Shown: positions 9,821 to 19,761 of the stretch, piece by piece
Layout: each line of letters starts with the position of its first letter
How positions within the stretch are numbered: position 1 is the stretch's first letter
Origin: Desulfobacterales bacterium
Lineage (GTDB): Bacteria > Desulfobacterota > Desulfobacteria > Desulfobacterales > Desulfatibacillaceae
NCBI GenBank assembly: GCA_020057225.1
Contig: JAGVGH010000256.1
Coordinates: 1-33,847 of the forward strand
Length of the DNA stretch: 33,847 bases
Reading direction: 5' to 3'
Translations under genes and position numbers: made by a program
Notes under the pieces: model-generated
What the model was told of the DNA's origin: nothing
Database searches by the model: none
The model's input: only the letters and a program-made list of their open reading frames with translations

Positions 9821-10918
9821 ATGCCAGACAAGTGTGCCGCACGGGATCGCGTATGGGGAAAGACAGCTCTTTTTGGGCTGACCCTTTGCGTGGCGCTTTT
9901 ATGTGCTTCGGCCAGCGCCTTTGCAGCGGCGCCTGTGGCCAAACTGACCGCGTTTTCAGGGCAGGTGCTGGTCCGCATCCAGGGCAACTGGGGCAAGGCC
10001 CCGGCCTTGGGCATGGATCTCTATCCCGAGGACAAGGTGGTGACCCGGCTGGGAACAGCGGTGGTCACTTTCCATGACGGCGGAAAACTGGATATCAACC
10101 AGTGCTCCAACGTGGAAATCCAGCAGTGGGAGGAGGAAAAGGGCTTTTTCACCAAGACCAAGGTTGTAAAGCGCCGCATCTTCCTGTATCTTGGCAAGCT
10201 GGCGTTCCGCTCGGGCAAGGCCGGAGTTGAAAACTCCCTGGGCACGCCCACCGCGGTCTGCGGGTTGCGCGGCACTGCGGGTGTTTTGAGCTTTGGCGCG
10301 GACGGACAGGCGTACATCACCTTCTCCGAAGGCGGCCAGAGTTATTCCATTGGTAATTTCATCCAGGGCGAGGCGCCCGATATTCCTCCGGAGGTGGCGG
10401 ATCTCAACCCTGCCCAAAGGGCCGCGTTTGTGGCCAAGGCGGCGTCGGTGCAGGCTGCCGCGGCCCAGACCATGGTCGATCAGGCCAAGGCATCGGGCAA
10501 TCCCGAGGAGGTGAAAAAGGCCGAGGCCCAGGTGGCGGCGGCTTACGCGTTCGCGGCCCAGAAGGCGGCGGAGGAGGCCCAGGCGGCGGCCACGGTGCTT
10601 ATTCAGAGCAATCCTGACCCGCAGGTGGTGGAGCAGGCCACACGCGCCCGGGACAGCGCGGCGCAGGCGGCCACCCAGGCCCAGGCCGCGGTGCAGGAGG
10701 CTGTCCAGGAAGGCGCCACAGACCCGGCAACCCTTGTGGCCACAGACCCTGCCGCCATCGTCACCATTATCCAGCAGCATCAGGAATCGCAACAGCCCGA
10801 AGGGACGCCGCCCCCGGCCCCCCCCGAGGAGGGCCCCATCTACGAGCCCCCCAGGATAGAGGTCAACGCTCCGACATTTAACGTGGATCCCGAGGACGTT
10901 AAAGAAGCGTCCCAGTGA
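9821..10918 (+). CDS. Secreted FecR-domain protein with long Ala/Gln-rich helical tail
   Basis: Signal peptide (TALFGLTLCVALLCASASAFA), FecR-like core (LTAFSGQVLVRIQGNWGKAPALGMDLYPEDKVVTRLGTAVVTFHDGGKLDI...GTPTAVCGLRGTAGVLSF), then a 150+ aa Ala-rich region. Confidence 0.85.
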   Translation: MPDKCAARDRVWGKTALFGLTLCVALLCASASAFAAAPVAKLTAFSGQVLVRIQGNWGKAPALGMDLYPEDKVVTRLGTAVVTFHDGGKLDINQCSNVEIQQWEEEKGFFTKTKVVKRRIFLYLGKLAFRSGKAGVENSLGTPTAVCGLRGTAGVLSFGADGQAYITFSEGGQSYSIGNFIQGEAPDIPPEVADLNPAQRAAFVAKAASVQAAAAQTMVDQAKASGNPEEVKKAEAQVAAAYAFAAQKAAEEAQAAATVLIQSNPDPQVVEQATRARDSAAQAATQAQAAVQEAVQEGATDPATLVATDPAAIVTIIQQHQESQQPEGTPPPAPPEEGPIYEPPRIEVNAPTFNVDPEDVKEASQ

Positions 10919-12419: not shown

Positions 12420-15400
12420 TTACCGCCTGCGGCGGACCAGAAGCGCAAGCCCGAGAAGGGCCAACAGGCCGAACACCGCCAGCGCGGGCGCGGCGTCCCC
12501 GGAGGACACGGTCCGGATGAGGCAGTCGCTGTCATCCGTTTCATCATCCGTTGTGCCGGTTGTGCCCGTGACGTTGGTCGCGCCAAAGCTGGACAGGTGC
12601 GTTGTCTCAAAGAGCACAAGGCCCGTGTCATCCACTGTGAAGCTCATGGTCTCGCGCACGTACTTGGCCGTCCCGTCGCCCCGCTCGCTCACCAGCATCT
12701 GGATGGAGCCTTTTGCCTTGGAAAGCTGGGAGAAACGCTTGAAGTAGGACGACTCGGGGTTCAGGAAGAGCGGAAGCGTAATGGCCGGAGCGTTGGCCAC
12801 GCGGCCCCTCCTTCCCGCCGCCGTGTAAGGGTTGTACCGCACGGTGGCGCCGTTGTAGGCGCCGCCCTGCATGGTGAATTCCAGCGAGACGCCGCTGGCG
12901 AAGGCATCGCCGCCAAAGGTGTAGTAGCTGAAGTGGGCGGTGAGCTTGTCGCCCGGCGTGAGCGTGACCGGATTGGCGGGCACCGTGTAGGTGTCCTTTG
13001 TCGCGTTGTAGCCCATGGCGTTGGTGCCCGGGGTTTGTGTTTCCTCATAATAGTAGTCATCCACATACAGAAGGTCCGGAGGCAGGGGCGGAATGGAGAT
13101 AGTGACATTCTGCTCCACACCGTCCGCGTCCGGCAGCGTGACATCGAAGGTCGCGCCCTGGATGGGGTAGAATTCCAGTTTGCCCAGGGTTTCGAACTTC
13201 ACGTCCTCGTTGCCATAATAATCCGACCGGAGGTCACGCACCGCCTGGGGCAGGGCGGCCGCAAAGTTGGTGGCGCTGGCGAACACCGTGAAGTTGACGG
13301 TGTAATGGTCCACCAGGGTCGCGCCGTCATAGACCAGGAAGCGCACCACGTGGGTGGTGTCGCCGGGTTTCGGCCTGTCGGCGAGCGCCTGGGTTTCGGG
13401 TCCGCCCAGATTCCAGTCGTAGGAGTAATTCCTGAAAGGCTCGCCCTGCTTGTTCGTGCCTGTGTACCCCTCGGCCGGAACAACGGCGCCCGCGTTTACA
13501 ACATTCACCACAGGCGGCCAGGCCTGGAAGTTGAGGGCCCGGAACTGCAGGTTGAATCCGTTGGCGTCTTTGGTGTGCTTGAACTGCACCCGGCGCGCCG
13601 CGGGATCAAAGGCCGCGTCCGCCACCAGAAGCGCGGTGATATCCGTGTCCGTGCTCAGGTCAATTTCCCCGTCCTGGGTGGTGGGATGCGTCCAGACATA
13701 GGGCTTGTAGTCTTTGGCCAGTATCCGGAGGAAATATTTGCCCGCCTTGAGGGTGATGGTCAAGGGATCCGCCGTGCTCTGGGCGGTCACGACAGCCTTG
13801 TTGGTTGTGGCGTCAAAGACCGTGTACCCGTACACGTCATTGGCAACATAATCGCCCGCCATGTCAACAGTGAGCACATGGGCCTGGTCCACCGGGGTAA
13901 GGGTTCCCATAACGAAGTTCTTGGTAATCTGCGCCGCGTTGACATCAATGCGCGCCTCCGCCATGTAAGGCAGGTAAACAGGAGGCACTGTGGTGTCCAC
14001 CGCGGTCAGCCGGATGCCGTAGGACCTCCAGGGCACGCCAAGGAACTGGTACGTGCCTGCAGCGGCCACAAATGTCTTCACCGCCGGAGAGAAGGGCGAC
14101 ATATCGGCGGCGTTTAAAAGCTCCACCGCCACGTCGGTCGCCGGGTTGGGAATGTAGGTGGCGGAAATGCCGGTAACCGTGCCGGAAACCGTTGCGGTGC
14201 CAATCACCTGGGTCCTGAGGCTGCCCATGTACTTCTTGTCCACATCCAGGGCCGTCTGCACGGTAACCACCGCGGAGCCGGGATTTTCCGCCGTCACGTT
14301 GAAGAGGTTGTCAGTATCCGTGGCGTTGTGATCTATCACGCTCTTGCCTGCCGTGACCGGAGTTTCGGCGGCGGTGATGGTGAGCGGTCCCGCAGTTCCC
14401 CGCGCGCGCATCCTGTACCCTCCTCCGCCCGCGGTAAAGACCGGCGGAATGGAATTGCCCGCCAAATCCTCAGCCACGAGCCGGATGGGCACGTACACGT
14501 CAAAGGTCGCCTGGCTGCTGCCCGCGCCGTCCGTCACGGTCACGGTGTACTTGCCCGCGAAATTCCCTGTGTCCGGGGCGTTGAACTGGAAGGTCCGGCT
14601 GTTCGACACAGGCGTGTAGGGCACCGGGCCGGCCACTGTCCAGTTGTACACTCCATCGCCGCCCAGAGCCGTGTAAATGCCCGGGGAAGAGCCTGCGGGA
14701 ACGGTGATGGGCTGGGCCGGGGCGTTCTGGATAGTCACCGCGCCATAGACGTTGAAGGTGGAGGTGTCCACCACGCCAAGGCCGGTGTCCGTGGCCGTGA
14801 CCGTCACCGCAACCGCCGGAGCCGTGACAGCCACCGTGGGCGCGGTGAAGAGCCCGGTCGTGGCGTTGATGGCGCCCTTGCTGGCGGTCCATGTCACCGT
14901 TCCGGAGCCGCCCACGGTGTTGAAGTCGTGGGACGCTGAGGATTTAATGGCGTTGATTTTGTTGGAGATGCCGAAGGAGACCACGTTGAGGTAGATAACC
15001 GCCCTGTGGACCGGAGTGTAGCCCTGGTTGTCCTCCACCGTGAGGGTGACGACCTGGTCCAGAGCAGCCACATTGGCGGTAAAAATTTTCTGGGCGGGAC
15101 TGGCGCCCGCGGTGAGCGTTCCCACGTTGGGGTTGAGCGTCCAGGTGTAGCCCGCGCCGGATCCGCCGGCCGCGGTGATGGGCACCGTGTTGCTGCCCGC
15201 GATTTTCGGCACGTTGACGGTGTAACCCGTGCCGGTCTGGCCGCTTGCGGTGAGGGTGACAGCGGGCTGATAGATGACAGTGCGGGGGTCGGAGGTGGAA
15301 AGGTTGCCCGCGTTGTCCAGGCCCCGGGCCAGTATGATGTTCGCGCCCTGGACAAGGTTGACCGCGAGGTTCCAGTTGTTGCCGTTTCTGTTGGCCTGTG

Positions 15401-17039
15401 CCCAGGCGCCGTTGTTGATGGAGACTTCCGCCTTGTTCACGCCCGAGCCCGCGTCCGTGACAGTGCCGCTCACTGTGTAGGCGGGAGCGGTCACACCGGA
15501 AAGGGTGTCCGCCGGGACGATGATTCCCCCGTCGGGCTCGGTGGTGTCCGCAGTGAATGCCGTGGTGTTGTTGTAGGCGGCCATGGTGTTGCCCAGGATG
15601 TCCTTGCCGCCGGTGGCGGTGAGCGCCTGGACGCCGTTGACTCCGGCCACGACAATGGTGCCCTGCCACGTGGCGGCCCCGGTCCACCCGCCCGCGACAT
15701 TGTTCCCCCCGCCCCATTGCACGGTGAGGGGCACGGTCTGGTCCATGGTCTCGTTGAACGTCAGGGTGGCCGTGATGTTTCCAGCCTTGTAATAGGTTGT
15801 TTGCGGGGCCAGTGTGAGGTTGGTGACAGAAGGCCCGGTTGTGTCTTTGGTGATGATTGGCCCGGCTGAGATGATGCCCACGTTGCCTGCGGCGTCCGTC
15901 ACCCGGACATGGACAGGGTTCGCCCCTTCGCCGAGGGTGAGGTTGACGCCCCAGTCCGCCGTGGTGGCGGTGGGGGTAAGCATGGCGGCCTCGTAGGCGG
16001 CGTTGCCGTCCCTGCTCACCTGAACCTCGGCCACCGCGCTGCCGGTGCCGTCGGCTGTGCCGGTGACGAGGAAGGCGCCTGTGTTAACGGTGACCGCGCC
16101 GGGGGGCGCCGTGACGGTGTAGGTGGGGGGGGTGTTATCAATGATGATGTTTTTGTTGCCGCCCAGAGACCCTCCCGCGCCCGGGGCGGGCAGGGTGAGA
16201 ACGGCCGCAAGCCCTGTGTCTGTGCTGGTAATGCCGCCGTCATTGAGCGCCAGGGAGTTGGTCGCGGCGTAGTCGAGATCGGCGCTGGTGTCGCCGCTGG
16301 CAACGGTGTAGCTGAAATTCAGCGTATCGTTGCCGGTCATGCCGGTGTAATTCAGCACGGTGGTTCCGGCCCCGGTCTGGAGGGTCAACTGGGGCGTGCC
16401 GGTGACGGTGACGTTCTGGTTGAACTGCACCGTCACAGGAATCGCCTCTCCGGACTTGTACGCGCCGTTGGCCTTGGTGGAGGACACATTGGTCACGGCC
16501 GGCGCGTCAACCACAGTGACGGTGCCGTTGGTAACCTGCGCCTGTTGTCCAGCGCCTGGGGCGTTGACAAAAATTGTGAGCGGTGTGGCGCCCAGCGCCG
16601 CATTGGACTTCACGGAAAAATTCAGCGTGACAAGGTTAGTCGGCAGCGTGTTGGGCCATTGGACGTCCGTGTCCACCCATGCCATTGCGACCTTTTTATC
16701 AGTTGTCGCATCGCCGTCCGCATCGCTGGAGTCAGCGCTGTCGGTTGGCGTGACCTTGGTTCCTCCCTCGTTGAGAAAGTTGGAGTGGGAATTATAGGTC
16801 AAAATATTGGAATTGTAATGGACGGCAAAACCAATACCTGTTGTCTGTGCTCCGTCATCCTGGTTGTAGGTCAGGATTACATCAAAACTTGTGCCTTTTG
16901 CTTTAGTTTGTGTAGCCGGAGAAACGGCAACACGTTGGATGCTTGCCGCAAATGCCGTCGTGGCAAATGCGGAGGCAGTAATTAAAGCCACTGCCAAGAA
17001 AACAAATTTCAAAGGAATTTTTGACGTTGTTTTTACCAT
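12420..17039 (-). CDS. Large secreted surface protein: cohesin-like N-terminus, Ig-like repeats, C-terminal Cys/TM/Arg-rich sorting-type signal
   Basis: 1539 aa; signal peptide; cohesin-like segment (GTSFDVILTYNQDD...TGIGFAVHYNSNILTY...VAMAWVDTDVQWPNTLPTNLVTLNFSV); Ig-like segments (SGTVTDAGSGVNKAEVSINNG); C-terminus DSDCLIRTVSSGDAAPALAVFGLLALLGLALLVRRRR. Confidence 0.88.
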   Translation of the reverse strand: MVKTTSKIPLKFVFLAVALITASAFATTAFAASIQRVAVSPATQTKAKGTSFDVILTYNQDDGAQTTGIGFAVHYNSNILTYNSHSNFLNEGGTKVTPTDSADSSDADGDATTDKKVAMAWVDTDVQWPNTLPTNLVTLNFSVKSNAALGATPLTIFVNAPGAGQQAQVTNGTVTVVDAPAVTNVSSTKANGAYKSGEAIPVTVQFNQNVTVTGTPQLTLQTGAGTTVLNYTGMTGNDTLNFSYTVASGDTSADLDYAATNSLALNDGGITSTDTGLAAVLTLPAPGAGGSLGGNKNIIIDNTPPTYTVTAPPGAVTVNTGAFLVTGTADGTGSAVAEVQVSRDGNAAYEAAMLTPTATTADWGVNLTLGEGANPVHVRVTDAAGNVGIISAGPIITKDTTGPSVTNLTLAPQTTYYKAGNITATLTFNETMDQTVPLTVQWGGGNNVAGGWTGAATWQGTIVVAGVNGVQALTATGGKDILGNTMAAYNNTTAFTADTTEPDGGIIVPADTLSGVTAPAYTVSGTVTDAGSGVNKAEVSINNGAWAQANRNGNNWNLAVNLVQGANIILARGLDNAGNLSTSDPRTVIYQPAVTLTASGQTGTGYTVNVPKIAGSNTVPITAAGGSGAGYTWTLNPNVGTLTAGASPAQKIFTANVAALDQVVTLTVEDNQGYTPVHRAVIYLNVVSFGISNKINAIKSSASHDFNTVGGSGTVTWTASKGAINATTGLFTAPTVAVTAPAVAVTVTATDTGLGVVDTSTFNVYGAVTIQNAPAQPITVPAGSSPGIYTALGGDGVYNWTVAGPVPYTPVSNSRTFQFNAPDTGNFAGKYTVTVTDGAGSSQATFDVYVPIRLVAEDLAGNSIPPVFTAGGGGYRMRARGTAGPLTITAAETPVTAGKSVIDHNATDTDNLFNVTAENPGSAVVTVQTALDVDKKYMGSLRTQVIGTATVSGTVTGISATYIPNPATDVAVELLNAADMSPFSPAVKTFVAAAGTYQFLGVPWRSYGIRLTAVDTTVPPVYLPYMAEARIDVNAAQITKNFVMGTLTPVDQAHVLTVDMAGDYVANDVYGYTVFDATTNKAVVTAQSTADPLTITLKAGKYFLRILAKDYKPYVWTHPTTQDGEIDLSTDTDITALLVADAAFDPAARRVQFKHTKDANGFNLQFRALNFQAWPPVVNVVNAGAVVPAEGYTGTNKQGEPFRNYSYDWNLGGPETQALADRPKPGDTTHVVRFLVYDGATLVDHYTVNFTVFASATNFAAALPQAVRDLRSDYYGNEDVKFETLGKLEFYPIQGATFDVTLPDADGVEQNVTISIPPLPPDLLYVDDYYYEETQTPGTNAMGYNATKDTYTVPANPVTLTPGDKLTAHFSYYTFGGDAFASGVSLEFTMQGGAYNGATVRYNPYTAAGRRGRVANAPAITLPLFLNPESSYFKRFSQLSKAKGSIQMLVSERGDGTAKYVRETMSFTVDDTGLVLFETTHLSSFGATNVTGTTGTTDDETDDSDCLIRTVSSGDAAPALAVFGLLALLGLALLVRRRR

Positions 17040-17105
17040 TACCCTTTTCTCCCTATTAAGTGTTTGCCTTGATTTTGGAAAAAACAGAACCTTTGCCTTT
17101 GTTAA

Positions 17106-17630
17106 TCATTGTCCTTTTGCCACTGGAAGAACGAGCTTGTTAGCGATGGAACCATATCCTTCCGCAGCTTTCACAACTTCTGGAGTCAATTCCACCTCGC
17201 CCTCTTTGGTTTCTTTGACTCGAAATTTTAGAACCGCTAAATCTTTTGGCAACTCTGTTCCGGGCCAGCTTTTGGCGATGCTCACCCAGCCAAGGCTGAT
17301 ATAACCTGTTTTCGCCCCTTCCTCGCTATTGCCAAGTGTGGGCTGAACAACCACGTCACCACCGACAAAAAAATTGTCATATCCTTCGAAAATAAGCTCT
17401 TCCTGGCTAAAATGGACTTTGAGAGCAGCCCCGGTCAACTGGTTGTTGCCATCTGTAGCATCATAGACCACTTGAACCTCAAGGGTTTGTCCTGGGACTG
17501 CTTCAACAGCGTTTGTTTTTAAGGAAACCACAATGTCCCCTGCAAATGCCGCGCCGCTGAATACAAGCATCAGCGCTGTTGCAAGGACGGGTATCCCGAG
17601 CGATGCCAAATTAAAGTTCGGCTTTTTCAT
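17106..17630 (-). CDS. Secreted single-domain cohesin-like protein
   Basis: 174 aa; signal peptide (ALMLVFSGAAFA); GQTLEVQVVYDATDGNNQLTGAALKVHFSQEELIFEGY...ISLGWVSIAKSWPGTELPKDLAVLKFRV; GGAGG SD. Confidence 0.85.
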   Translation of the reverse strand: MKKPNFNLASLGIPVLATALMLVFSGAAFAGDIVVSLKTNAVEAVPGQTLEVQVVYDATDGNNQLTGAALKVHFSQEELIFEGYDNFFVGGDVVVQPTLGNSEEGAKTGYISLGWVSIAKSWPGTELPKDLAVLKFRVKETKEGEVELTPEVVKAAEGYGSIANKLVLPVAKGQ

Positions 17631-17641
17631 GGCAATCCTCC

Positions 17642-17674
17642 AAAAAGGCCCCTGGAGGCGCGCTCCAGGGGCCT
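17642..17674 (-). terminator. Intrinsic terminator/attenuator between two cohesin-like genes
   Basis: Minus strand aggcccctggag-cgcgc-ctccaggggccttttt: 12-bp perfect stem, 5-nt loop, T5, running directly into the next gene's GGAGG. Confidence 0.85.
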
Positions 17675-17691
17675 GCGGTGGCGCGCAAGGA

Positions 17692-19761
17692 TTACGGCAT
17701 CAGCGCGTCAAGGTAGGTCTTAACGGCATCCTCGGTTTTCCGGGTTCCAGTCGTGTCAAACAGATTGGCTGACCAGCCCGGGCCCATGATGCCAAGCTGC
17801 GTGTACAACTGATACCTCACAATCAGGACACCGTCCGTCATTGCGTCATTGTCTCCGTCTCCATCAACGTCCGTGATGAAAGCGGCGGCGCCATTGTCCA
17901 GGAATGGTTTCACGAGGTTTTCCGTATTCCGCGTACCGGACAGTCCAAACAGGTTGGCGGACCAGCCTGGACCCATGATGCCAAGCTGGTTGTAGAGCAT
18001 GTAGCGGACCGCCATAACACCGTCTGTCATGGAATCCGCATCCCCGTCGCCGTCAACGTCCATGTTCCAGTTCTGAACATGCACGGTCCCGCCCTGGCCG
18101 GTGAAGGCGTAGCCAGCGCCCGTCACATTGCTCGTGATGTTGAGCGCAGTGTTGCCATTGAAGGCGTTTTTAATACGGAAGCCAATCTTCACAAGGTCCA
18201 CTGGCAGAGTTCCGCCGGGCCACGCCACACTCGAATCCACCCAGGACATCACGACTTCCTTGTCCGTGGAAGGATCGCCGTCATCCTGCTGCTCGGTATC
18301 CCTCAGAGTCGGCCTGACCTTGACGCCGCCCACCTCAAGGTAATCGCTGTAGCCCATATACTCGAGCTTCGTCGAGTCGAAGTGGACGTAGAAGCCTATG
18401 CCGGTAGAGGCGTTGTTGGCGTCGGAGGTCGTGTATCTGACAGTCACCGTAACGGTCGAGCCGACCGCGGCGGCGGAATCCGCCGGATTTACGCTCACAA
18501 TCTGATACGCTCCGACAATCCGGTTGTCAGTTGCAGGGTTGTACCCTGGCAGGCCGGTGGGCGTCTGCACCGTCGGATCGGTCCCGTTCTGGTACTCCAC
18601 CGAGTTCTTGTAGCCGTCGCTGTCCGTGTCGGCGTTCGGGTCGCAGTTGCCGCCGCAGTAGAGCGCTTCCCACCAATCCGGCAGGCCGTCCGCGTCGGTG
18701 TCCGGATCGCCCAGGGTGATGTCTTTGCCCGTGAGGGCCGCGTTGCTCACAACCACGTCGCTTGAATGCAGGCCCTGGGCCTCCCAGGTGTCCTTGCCGT
18801 TGGACGCGGTGTCAATCCATGCGTAAATTTTAAAGGTTCCGGCGGGAAGCCCGGTGCTGTTGGAACTGTCAAACAAGTACGCCTTGCTGGTGGCGCCCTG
18901 GGTCCAGGAGTACTGGATTTCCCGCGCGGGAGTAACCAGGTCTGTGGCGCGGTAGGCCGCCACGTGCAGCGTCCCAACCTGCGGGCCGGTGTAGCTCACT
19001 GTGCCCGCCACGTTGTATGTGGGCTCCGAAACCACCTGAAGGCCGGAAAGCGTCACCGGCAGCGTCACCGTATGCACGGGAAACGCGGCGTTCAGGTTAT
19101 ACCAGTTCGGATCGTTTTTGTCCACCGCGCCCACCAGAACCGGCACAGGCTCTTTCTGGTCCCCGGCGCCCATGGCCCGGTCCGTGGTAACGGGTGTGCC
19201 GGTGGAGTCCAGGCCGTAGCCCGCCAGCGGGTTCCAAAGATAGGTCTGGGTGAGCTTGAACCCGAACAGGCTGTTGATAGGAGCGTCGCTCTTGACTTTG
19301 AATTTCACCGTGAAGAGTTCGGCGGCCCCGCTGTTGGTATAGGGAGCGCCGCCCGTGGTGGTGTTGATGGCGGCTCCGGAAAAGAGAATCTTGCCCGCCT
19401 CGGTGGCGCTGTTTTCCCGGTTGGTCGGGTAGTTGGTGTACTGGCCGTGGGTGAAAGTGAAGGGGAAGGTGGTGATGATTTCCCCTGGAACTGTCGGCGT
19501 GCCGTCGGTGCCGGTGGCCGGGGCTGTGAGGAGCGTGGGGCTGTATTCCAGCGTAAACGCGCAGCCCGCGACGCCCGCCATGTTGTCCACGGCGATGTTG
19601 AGGTAGAGGTCGCTCCCCTGGGTGTACTGGGTGGCCACGGTGTTGCCGTCCGTGGTTGCCTCCAGACTCAGGGTGTAGTTGGCGGCGTTGGCGGCGCCGG
19701 ACATGCCCAGCGTCAAAAGGGCCGCCGCGAGCAAAACAGCGGGAAAGCGCTTCTGCATCAT
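17692..19761 (-). CDS. Secreted protein with two cohesin-like domains, TSP3-like Ca-binding repeats and a tandem dockerin-like C-terminus
   Basis: Start MMQKRFPAVLLAAALLTLGMSGAANA at 19761; the ORF's further N-terminal extension is unlikely. TSP3-like DPDTDADGLPDWWEALYCGGNCDPNADTDSDGYKNSVEYQNGTDP; C-terminal DVDGDGDADSMTDGVMAVRYML and DVDGDGDNDAMTDGVLIVRYQL repeats. Confidence 0.88.
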   Translation of the reverse strand: MMQKRFPAVLLAAALLTLGMSGAANAANYTLSLEATTDGNTVATQYTQGSDLYLNIAVDNMAGVAGCAFTLEYSPTLLTAPATGTDGTPTVPGEIITTFPFTFTHGQYTNYPTNRENSATEAGKILFSGAAINTTTGGAPYTNSGAAELFTVKFKVKSDAPINSLFGFKLTQTYLWNPLAGYGLDSTGTPVTTDRAMGAGDQKEPVPVLVGAVDKNDPNWYNLNAAFPVHTVTLPVTLSGLQVVSEPTYNVAGTVSYTGPQVGTLHVAAYRATDLVTPAREIQYSWTQGATSKAYLFDSSNSTGLPAGTFKIYAWIDTASNGKDTWEAQGLHSSDVVVSNAALTGKDITLGDPDTDADGLPDWWEALYCGGNCDPNADTDSDGYKNSVEYQNGTDPTVQTPTGLPGYNPATDNRIVGAYQIVSVNPADSAAAVGSTVTVTVRYTTSDANNASTGIGFYVHFDSTKLEYMGYSDYLEVGGVKVRPTLRDTEQQDDGDPSTDKEVVMSWVDSSVAWPGGTLPVDLVKIGFRIKNAFNGNTALNITSNVTGAGYAFTGQGGTVHVQNWNMDVDGDGDADSMTDGVMAVRYMLYNQLGIMGPGWSANLFGLSGTRNTENLVKPFLDNGAAAFITDVDGDGDNDAMTDGVLIVRYQLYTQLGIMGPGWSANLFDTTGTRKTEDAVKTYLDALMP
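17695..18060 (-). repeat. Tandem coding repeat: two ~60-aa dockerin-like/EF-hand units
   Basis: Consensus DVDGDGDxDxMTDGVxxVRYxLYxQLGIMGPGWSANLFxxxGTRxTExxVKxxLD occurs twice at the C-terminus. Confidence 0.9.

Follow-up and report, generated by a model that had tools for sequence, protein, structure and literature searches.

What cohesins and dockerins do outside cellulosomes is a long-standing question, and it is raised in compact form by three consecutive genes of a Desulfobacterales bacterium (GCA_020057225.1, contig JAGVGH010000256.1) that encode secreted proteins of 689, 174 and 1539 amino acids (aa). The stretch analysed here (the window; 33,847 nucleotides) is the whole of contig C246 of a 3.5-Mb genome bin in 323 contigs, and the host belongs to the Desulfobacterota and resembles Desulfatibacillum. 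We conclude that the operon probably encodes a cohesin-dockerin-type surface tether of non-cellulosomal kind, in which an adhesin or matrix protein is held on an anchored scaffold and the output is adhesive or matrix-like and not an enzyme complex. The locus can be described as a minimal closed circuit, with one plug (the dockerin-like tail of the 689-aa protein), related sockets (the cohesins) and one anchored scaffold in one operon. A first-pass annotation, made from the sequence alone, had interpreted it as a self-assembling surface matrix, an interpretation that is partly supported as a whole. Its three consecutive minus-strand secreted proteins are confirmed by the reading frames and by the signal peptides that, as judged by eye, begin all three (...GAANA, ...GAAFA and ...TTAFA), except that the first, given as 690 aa, comes from a frame of 2070 nt with its stop and has 689.

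The tail and its matching cohesins

The strict co-occurrence of the tail with one type of cohesin is good indirect evidence that the two pair. We surveyed 292 genomes of the order and 317 of the phylum, about 596 Desulfobacterota genomes in all, with tail and cohesin profiles built from matches in the first 95, which leaves about 501 outside the pool; profiles were needed because a close-relative scan of a collection of genome contigs with the 689-aa protein as query found no match. The tail is present in 10 genomes of the order and the matching cohesin in 11, all 10 tail genomes having both, and in the phylum set both are present in the same three genomes, one of them (G320) new. Taken together, the tail occurs in 11 genomes and the cohesin in 12, with both in 11/11 tail genomes. 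Outside the pool the five genomes with a tail (G098, G123, G143, G172 and G320) are the same five that have the cohesin, an overlap whose naive chance, ignoring relatedness, is 4e-12. The conserved synteny that the first-pass annotation had proposed to look for in related genomes is also seen, as the tail and cohesin genes are same-strand neighbours separated by no more than ~1.2 kb, the tail gene being the upstream one in every case but G123. In the host genome itself the tail search matched the 689-aa protein and no second tail of this type, and the genome's three family-type cohesins all lie within this operon. In Desulfatibacillum no gene corresponding to that of the 174-aa protein lies between the other two, but ER2bin7 (G047) does have related small cohesin genes between its tail and scaffold genes.

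The tail had been described as a tandem dockerin-like repeat. Remote homology supports its dockerin-like nature, but the repeats make most sense as the F-hand pair of a single enlarged module, not as two dockerins, because there are two repeats per frame, with 13-residue loops and a spacing of 57-63. The loops follow the pattern D-[IV]-D-G-[DN]-G-x-x-x-A-L-T-D-G, in which the closing Asp is position 13 in 99 of 101 matches, giving a loop of 13 residues instead of the normal 12. Positions 1, 3, 5 and 13, the Ca ligands, are D/N in 97-100% of 99 loops, and an AlphaFold2 model has a helix after each tail loop. Loop spacing is 57-63 residues in all but one case (63 in the window), compared with 32 in the 1ohz dockerin, and exactly two repeats are found in 61 of the 67 tail-bearing frames (a few loci being counted twice). 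The tail thus shares with type I dockerins the two F-hand loop-helix sites with D/N ligands and lacks their 12-residue loop and their module size of ~60 residues, its own being ~120 aa. When a profile of 11 tails was compared with PDB, the best matches were the dockerins 1ohz_B, 4fl4_A and 2ccl_B (E 0.0076-0.013), followed by ScaB dockerins; these scores are weak, yet dockerin chains make up a tiny share of PDB.

The cohesin-like motif that the first-pass annotation reported in all three proteins is present, as TGIGFYVHF...MSWVD...WPGGTLPVDLVKIGFRI in the 689-aa protein, as TGIGFAVHY...MAWVD...WPNTLPTNLVTLNFSV in the 1539-aa protein and in a looser form, TGAALKVHF...LGWVS...WPGTELPKDLAVLKFRV, in the 174-aa protein. 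Pfam matches show that this is no coincidental pattern and fold comparison backs the assignment, and the count rises from three domains to four, two in the 689-aa protein (CohN and CohC, at its N- and C-terminal sides) and one in each of the others, since CohN had been overlooked together with a TSP3-type repeat. The Pfam family PF00963 (gathering cut-off 24.1 bits), named as a check, has two matches in the 689-aa protein (5e-10 over its full length), and in a genome scan the scaffold cohesin and both 689-aa cohesins reach 27.6, 27.2 and 26.3 bits; the 174-aa protein stays under the cut-off (E 0.004, 17.8 bits). Against the family profile the window's three CohC domains score E 1e-35 to 1e-48, the profile including them. 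PF00963 alone overlooks matching cohesins that our cohesin profile (A2) detects in tail-bearing genomes, and for this reason it was not used for claims of absence. A2 matched nothing among PDB sequences, so that the link to PDB cohesins rests on Pfam and on fold comparison.

That comparison covers two of the four cohesins, CohC and the 174-aa protein, and in both the predicted models have the cohesin fold, an all-beta sandwich; a non-cohesin fold had been named as the result that would count against the idea. AlphaFold2 gave a predicted local distance difference test score (pLDDT) of 89 and a predicted template modelling score (pTM) of 0.72 for CohC plus tail, and a pLDDT of 83 for the 174-aa protein. 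In Foldseek searches of PDB the top 18 matches of the CohC model, driven by its cohesin part only, were cohesins (best E 1.1e-9), as were the top nine of the 174-aa model (best E 1.6e-7), with 12-20% identity to PDB cohesins in both cases.

The scaffold and how the parts may fit together

Residues 1-1514 of the 1539-aa protein are homologous to a D. alkenivorans protein at 35% identity, and Desulfatibacillum homologues likewise match both halves of the 689-aa protein. The anchor-type signal that had been noticed at the end of the 1539-aa protein is conserved: the window's acidic linker, SDCLIRTVSS, hydrophobic stretch and RRRR align with ESDCFVDTVS and ESDCFVDSVS in two Desulfatibacillum scaffolds and with SDNCFISTAA in that of G068. 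This conservation in homologous scaffolds supports anchoring, and the protein is presumably held at the surface by its C-terminal tail. An LPXTG or Gram_pos_anchor identity of the tail was rejected on the weakness of the matches, as was a widespread sorting signal in this genome on finding a single clear second copy. That copy ends a 753-codon frame on another contig (G000:C192; L026:3279-5537), which has the scaffold-type Cys/hydrophobic/Arg C-terminus and in which no cohesin was detected. Enzyme-named Pfam and NCBIfam matches within the 1539-aa protein (glucodextranase domain B, SorA region) fell under their cut-offs and were read as Ig-like stretches.

In the tether that we propose, the 1539-aa protein would be the surface-anchored scaffold, and the 689-aa protein, made of non-catalytic domains, would be tethered to it by docking of its C-terminal, Ca2+-loaded dockerin-like module into the scaffold cohesin. 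The 174-aa stand-alone cohesin may bind the same module in soluble form and so act as a shuttle, cap or competitor. Head-to-tail chains of the 689-aa protein would also be possible because it carries a cohesin closely related to that of the scaffold. The homology of the domains, the fold of two cohesins, the operon layout, the co-occurrence and the conserved anchor-type tail are what the data show; binding of tail to cohesin, its dependence on Ca2+, attachment to the surface, the part played by the 174-aa protein, adhesion and chain formation are what we infer from them, and the product would be an adhesive or matrix layer rather than an enzyme complex.

Several observations weigh against this reading. 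The dockerin match is remote, the loop being one residue longer and the spacing nearly double, and the PF00404 (Dockerin_1) match that the first-pass annotation had suggested seeking is missing from the window's tail, while 5 of the 11 tail family members give one (best 1.1e-5). One genome, G032, has the matching cohesin without the tail, and the co-occurrence is partly inherited, the counts being made without phylogenetic correction. Ten tail-bearing genomes, mostly from other phyla, showed no cohesin close to the tail; seven of them have one elsewhere and three gave no matching cohesin, although these are metagenome-assembled genome (MAG) records that may be incomplete. The anchor-type tail matches no named sorting family above its cut-off, and its one clear second copy in the genome is on C192. 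In a rival reading, cohesin-fold and EF-hand-like modules are only structural parts of adhesins and do not dock with one another, which we consider improbable. CohN-type domains do occur in genomes that lack the tail (G006, G016 and G022; G066 also lacks it), and cohesin-like folds occur in proteins that are not known to bind dockerins, for example integrins and a fibrillar adhesin (in its CLIPPER domain), but the presence of CohC matches that of the tail almost perfectly across the ~596 genomes and their genes adjoin, which would be unexpected for independent parts. A remnant cellulosome or other enzyme-carrying complex is far less credible again, even though cohesin and dockerin are cellulosome hallmarks and other contigs of the genome encode PF00404 dockerins of the ordinary kind and a protein with both cohesin and dockerin. 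The first-pass statement that no glycoside hydrolase is encoded here is borne out among the window genes checked, in keeping with a non-cellulosomal context; Pfam scans of the operon, of these genes and of the examined dockerin-bearing proteins of the genome gave neither a glycoside hydrolase nor a carbohydrate-binding module (CBM), and the domains seen on partners from other genomes are PKD, LRR, TIG, beta-helix and Ig. The dockerin-bearing glycoside hydrolases and multi-cohesin scaffoldin with CBM that define a cellulosome were not found, the scaffold having one cohesin.

Within the tether model itself the role of the cohesin next to the tail can be read in two ways, and the likelihoods that we give these variants are shares of that model, overlapping with it. 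The dyad cohesin could accept another tail or act as a stabiliser. The X module is a stabilising neighbour of clostridial and ruminococcal dockerins, and CohC may be similar because it ends only 2-3 residues before the tail; the tether would then be 1:1, without a polymer, a variant to which we give somewhat less than an even chance. The same short gap is found in 18 of 19 distinct dyads, from Desulfobacterota and Cyanobacteria, and such a fixed linker favours a rigid dyad; an InlB-type B-repeat in G082 and a CohN domain in G068 abut the tail at the same position, and the dyad cohesins of Desulfatibacillum lie on a long branch of the tree, apart from their scaffold cohesins. In the window, on the other hand, CohC has the scaffold cohesin as its sister in the tree, at 43% identity, which favours a shared ligand specificity. 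Alternatively, the tail of one 689-aa protein would bind the cohesin of the next copy, in a chain that starts on the scaffold and whose length is controlled by the 174-aa protein. This polymer is plausible and we regard it as unlikely: it fits a protein with plug and socket in one chain, a single plug gene of this type beside three related sockets in one operon, and the recurrence of the dyad in Cyanobacteria, but a rigid dyad is equally compatible with the X-like role, and in several of the tail-bearing proteins of related loci no dyad cohesin was detected.

Known systems and spread to other phyla

Cohesin and dockerin proteins outside cellulosomes are a known kind; what appears to be new, within the open literature searched, is a dockerin type that is enlarged, is strictly paired with a single type of cohesin and occurs in several phyla. 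Peer et al. in 2009 (as cited in PMC9012536) reportedly described such proteins in bacteria and archaea. The likeness is that non-cellulolytic organisms secrete proteins with cohesin and dockerin-like modules, and the locus differs in having the scaffold, a stand-alone cohesin and the genome's only plug of the type found in one operon, and in a plug with distinct loop length and spacing. The type I pairs of cellulosomes (1ohz, Clostridium thermocellum) have the same cohesin fold and F-hand Ca loops and are the best PDB matches, whereas here the loop has 13 and not 12 residues, the spacing is 57-63 and not 32, there are no enzymes and the scaffold has a single cohesin. ScaG of Ruminococcus flavefaciens (4n2o, 4wkz) is an autonomous cohesin that stands alone like the 174-aa protein and is among its PDB matches; the relation is remote (11-14% identity), and the presumed partner at this locus is no X-dockerin carried by an enzyme. 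In sulfate reducers that are partners of anaerobic methanotrophic archaea (ANME), namely HotSeep-1, Seep-SRB1g and Seep-SRB2, cohesin/dockerin complexes have been proposed as aggregate adhesins (PMC10553843), and cohesin/dockerin proteins of ANME archaea have been discussed as well (PMC9012536). These systems are alike in their sulfate-reducer hosts, adjacent cohesin and dockerin domains and proposed role in aggregation or adhesion; there is no evidence of an ANME partnership here.

When named genomes were scanned, the tail profile gave matches in the Cyanobacteria (Anabaenopsis, Prochlorococcus single-cell genomes and Synechococcus lacustris), Magnetococcales, a Nitrospirales MAG, Gammaproteobacteria and a Phycisphaera MAG, and in many cyanobacterial cases a cohesin stands immediately in front of the tail in the same protein, which is also the arrangement in the window. 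In other genomes the tail is accompanied by LRR, TIG, beta-helix, Ig or InlB-repeat domains, the scaffolds have domains of the PKD, fn3 or Ig kind, and no glycoside hydrolase catalytic domain was found on the proteins examined. The tail and its cohesin might form a separate pair class, with 13-residue loops, ~60-residue spacing and a rigid dyad, that builds non-enzymatic, self-polymerising surface matrices in several phyla including Prochlorococcus, a generalisation that we rather doubt. Were it a distinct and widespread plug and socket class, it would provide a possibly orthogonal pair for protein engineering, and the homologues in cultured Desulfatibacillum alkenivorans make binding and surface tethering directly testable.

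In two small planktonic Prochlorococcus single-cell genomes (AG-402-L23 and AG-412-J13, 1.7-1.8 Mb; L151, L155, L156 and L159) large proteins end in a cohesin plus dockerin-like dyad, and the 11-12 cohesin matches per genome are striking for this size. In the genome G082 (contig C93; L067, L068 and L144) four tail-bearing proteins, of InlB-repeat, Ig and LRR/PKD types, are encoded one after another, upstream of one large cohesin-PKD protein, which resembles several plugs for one socket.

Features and gene setting

Positions in the window of the three genes and of their domains (Table 1).
Feature	Position	Strand	Evidence
Gene 1: 689-aa secreted protein, CohN - middle region - TSP3 - CohC - dockerin-like tail	17692..19761	-	ORF; PF00963 5e-10, two stretches
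CohN, N-terminal cohesin-like domain of 689-aa protein	19078..19680	-	PF00963 at 19279-19623, 27.2 bits; profile match
TSP3-type Ca-binding repeat of 689-aa protein	18571..18630	-	PF18884 E=0.0012, under cut-off
CohC, C-terminal cohesin of 689-aa protein (socket in plug-bearing protein)	18076..18507	-	PF00963 27.9 bits, above cut-off; AlphaFold2 model
Dockerin-like F-hand repeat 1, loop DVDGDGDADSMTDG	17896..18069	-	profile match; loop analysis
Dockerin-like F-hand repeat 2, loop DVDGDGDNDAMTDG	17707..17880	-	profile match; loop analysis
Gene 2: 174-aa secreted stand-alone cohesin, without anchor or dockerin	17106..17630	-	ORF; PF00963; AlphaFold2 model
Gene 3: 1539-aa scaffold: cohesin, Ig-like stretches, anchor-type C-terminus	12420..17039	-	ORF; D. 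alkenivorans homologue
Scaffold cohesin of 1539-aa protein	16512..16940	-	PF00963 27.6 bits
Putative anchor-type tail of 1539-aa protein: acidic linker, SDC[LF][IV]..VS, hydrophobic stretch, Arg/Lys cluster	12423..12572	-	conserved in Desulfatibacillum and G068 scaffolds

The three genes run in the same direction with intergenic gaps of 61 and 66 bp. Their neighbours are ordinary chromosomal genes, for a radical-SAM/lysine aminomutase-like protein, TrmO, a hydroxyisobutyrate-dehydrogenase-like protein and a metallophosphoesterase, and further for Mfd, SurA-like proteins, a GHMP kinase and IspH-UbiA. None of these window neighbours was found in the 19.5 kb around the locus in two Desulfatibacillum genomes, so the operon has a different context there. 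Promoter and terminator scans gave results scarcely above shuffled sequence, and a plasmid search returned no match.

Outside the window the genome has a second, different cohesin-dockerin set, a 251-codon frame with a cohesin followed by an ordinary PF00404-type dockerin (G000:C293:15960-16712; L019:5961-6713). Type I dockerins of the ordinary kind are also borne by PKD/NHL-repeat and Fn3-like proteins, which have no glycoside hydrolase domain (G000:C260, L021; G000:C61, L022). Elsewhere in the window, at 9821-10918, lies a gene whose product, which has no Pfam match at 1e-5, was recognised by eye as a secreted FecR-like protein with an Ala-rich C-terminal region.

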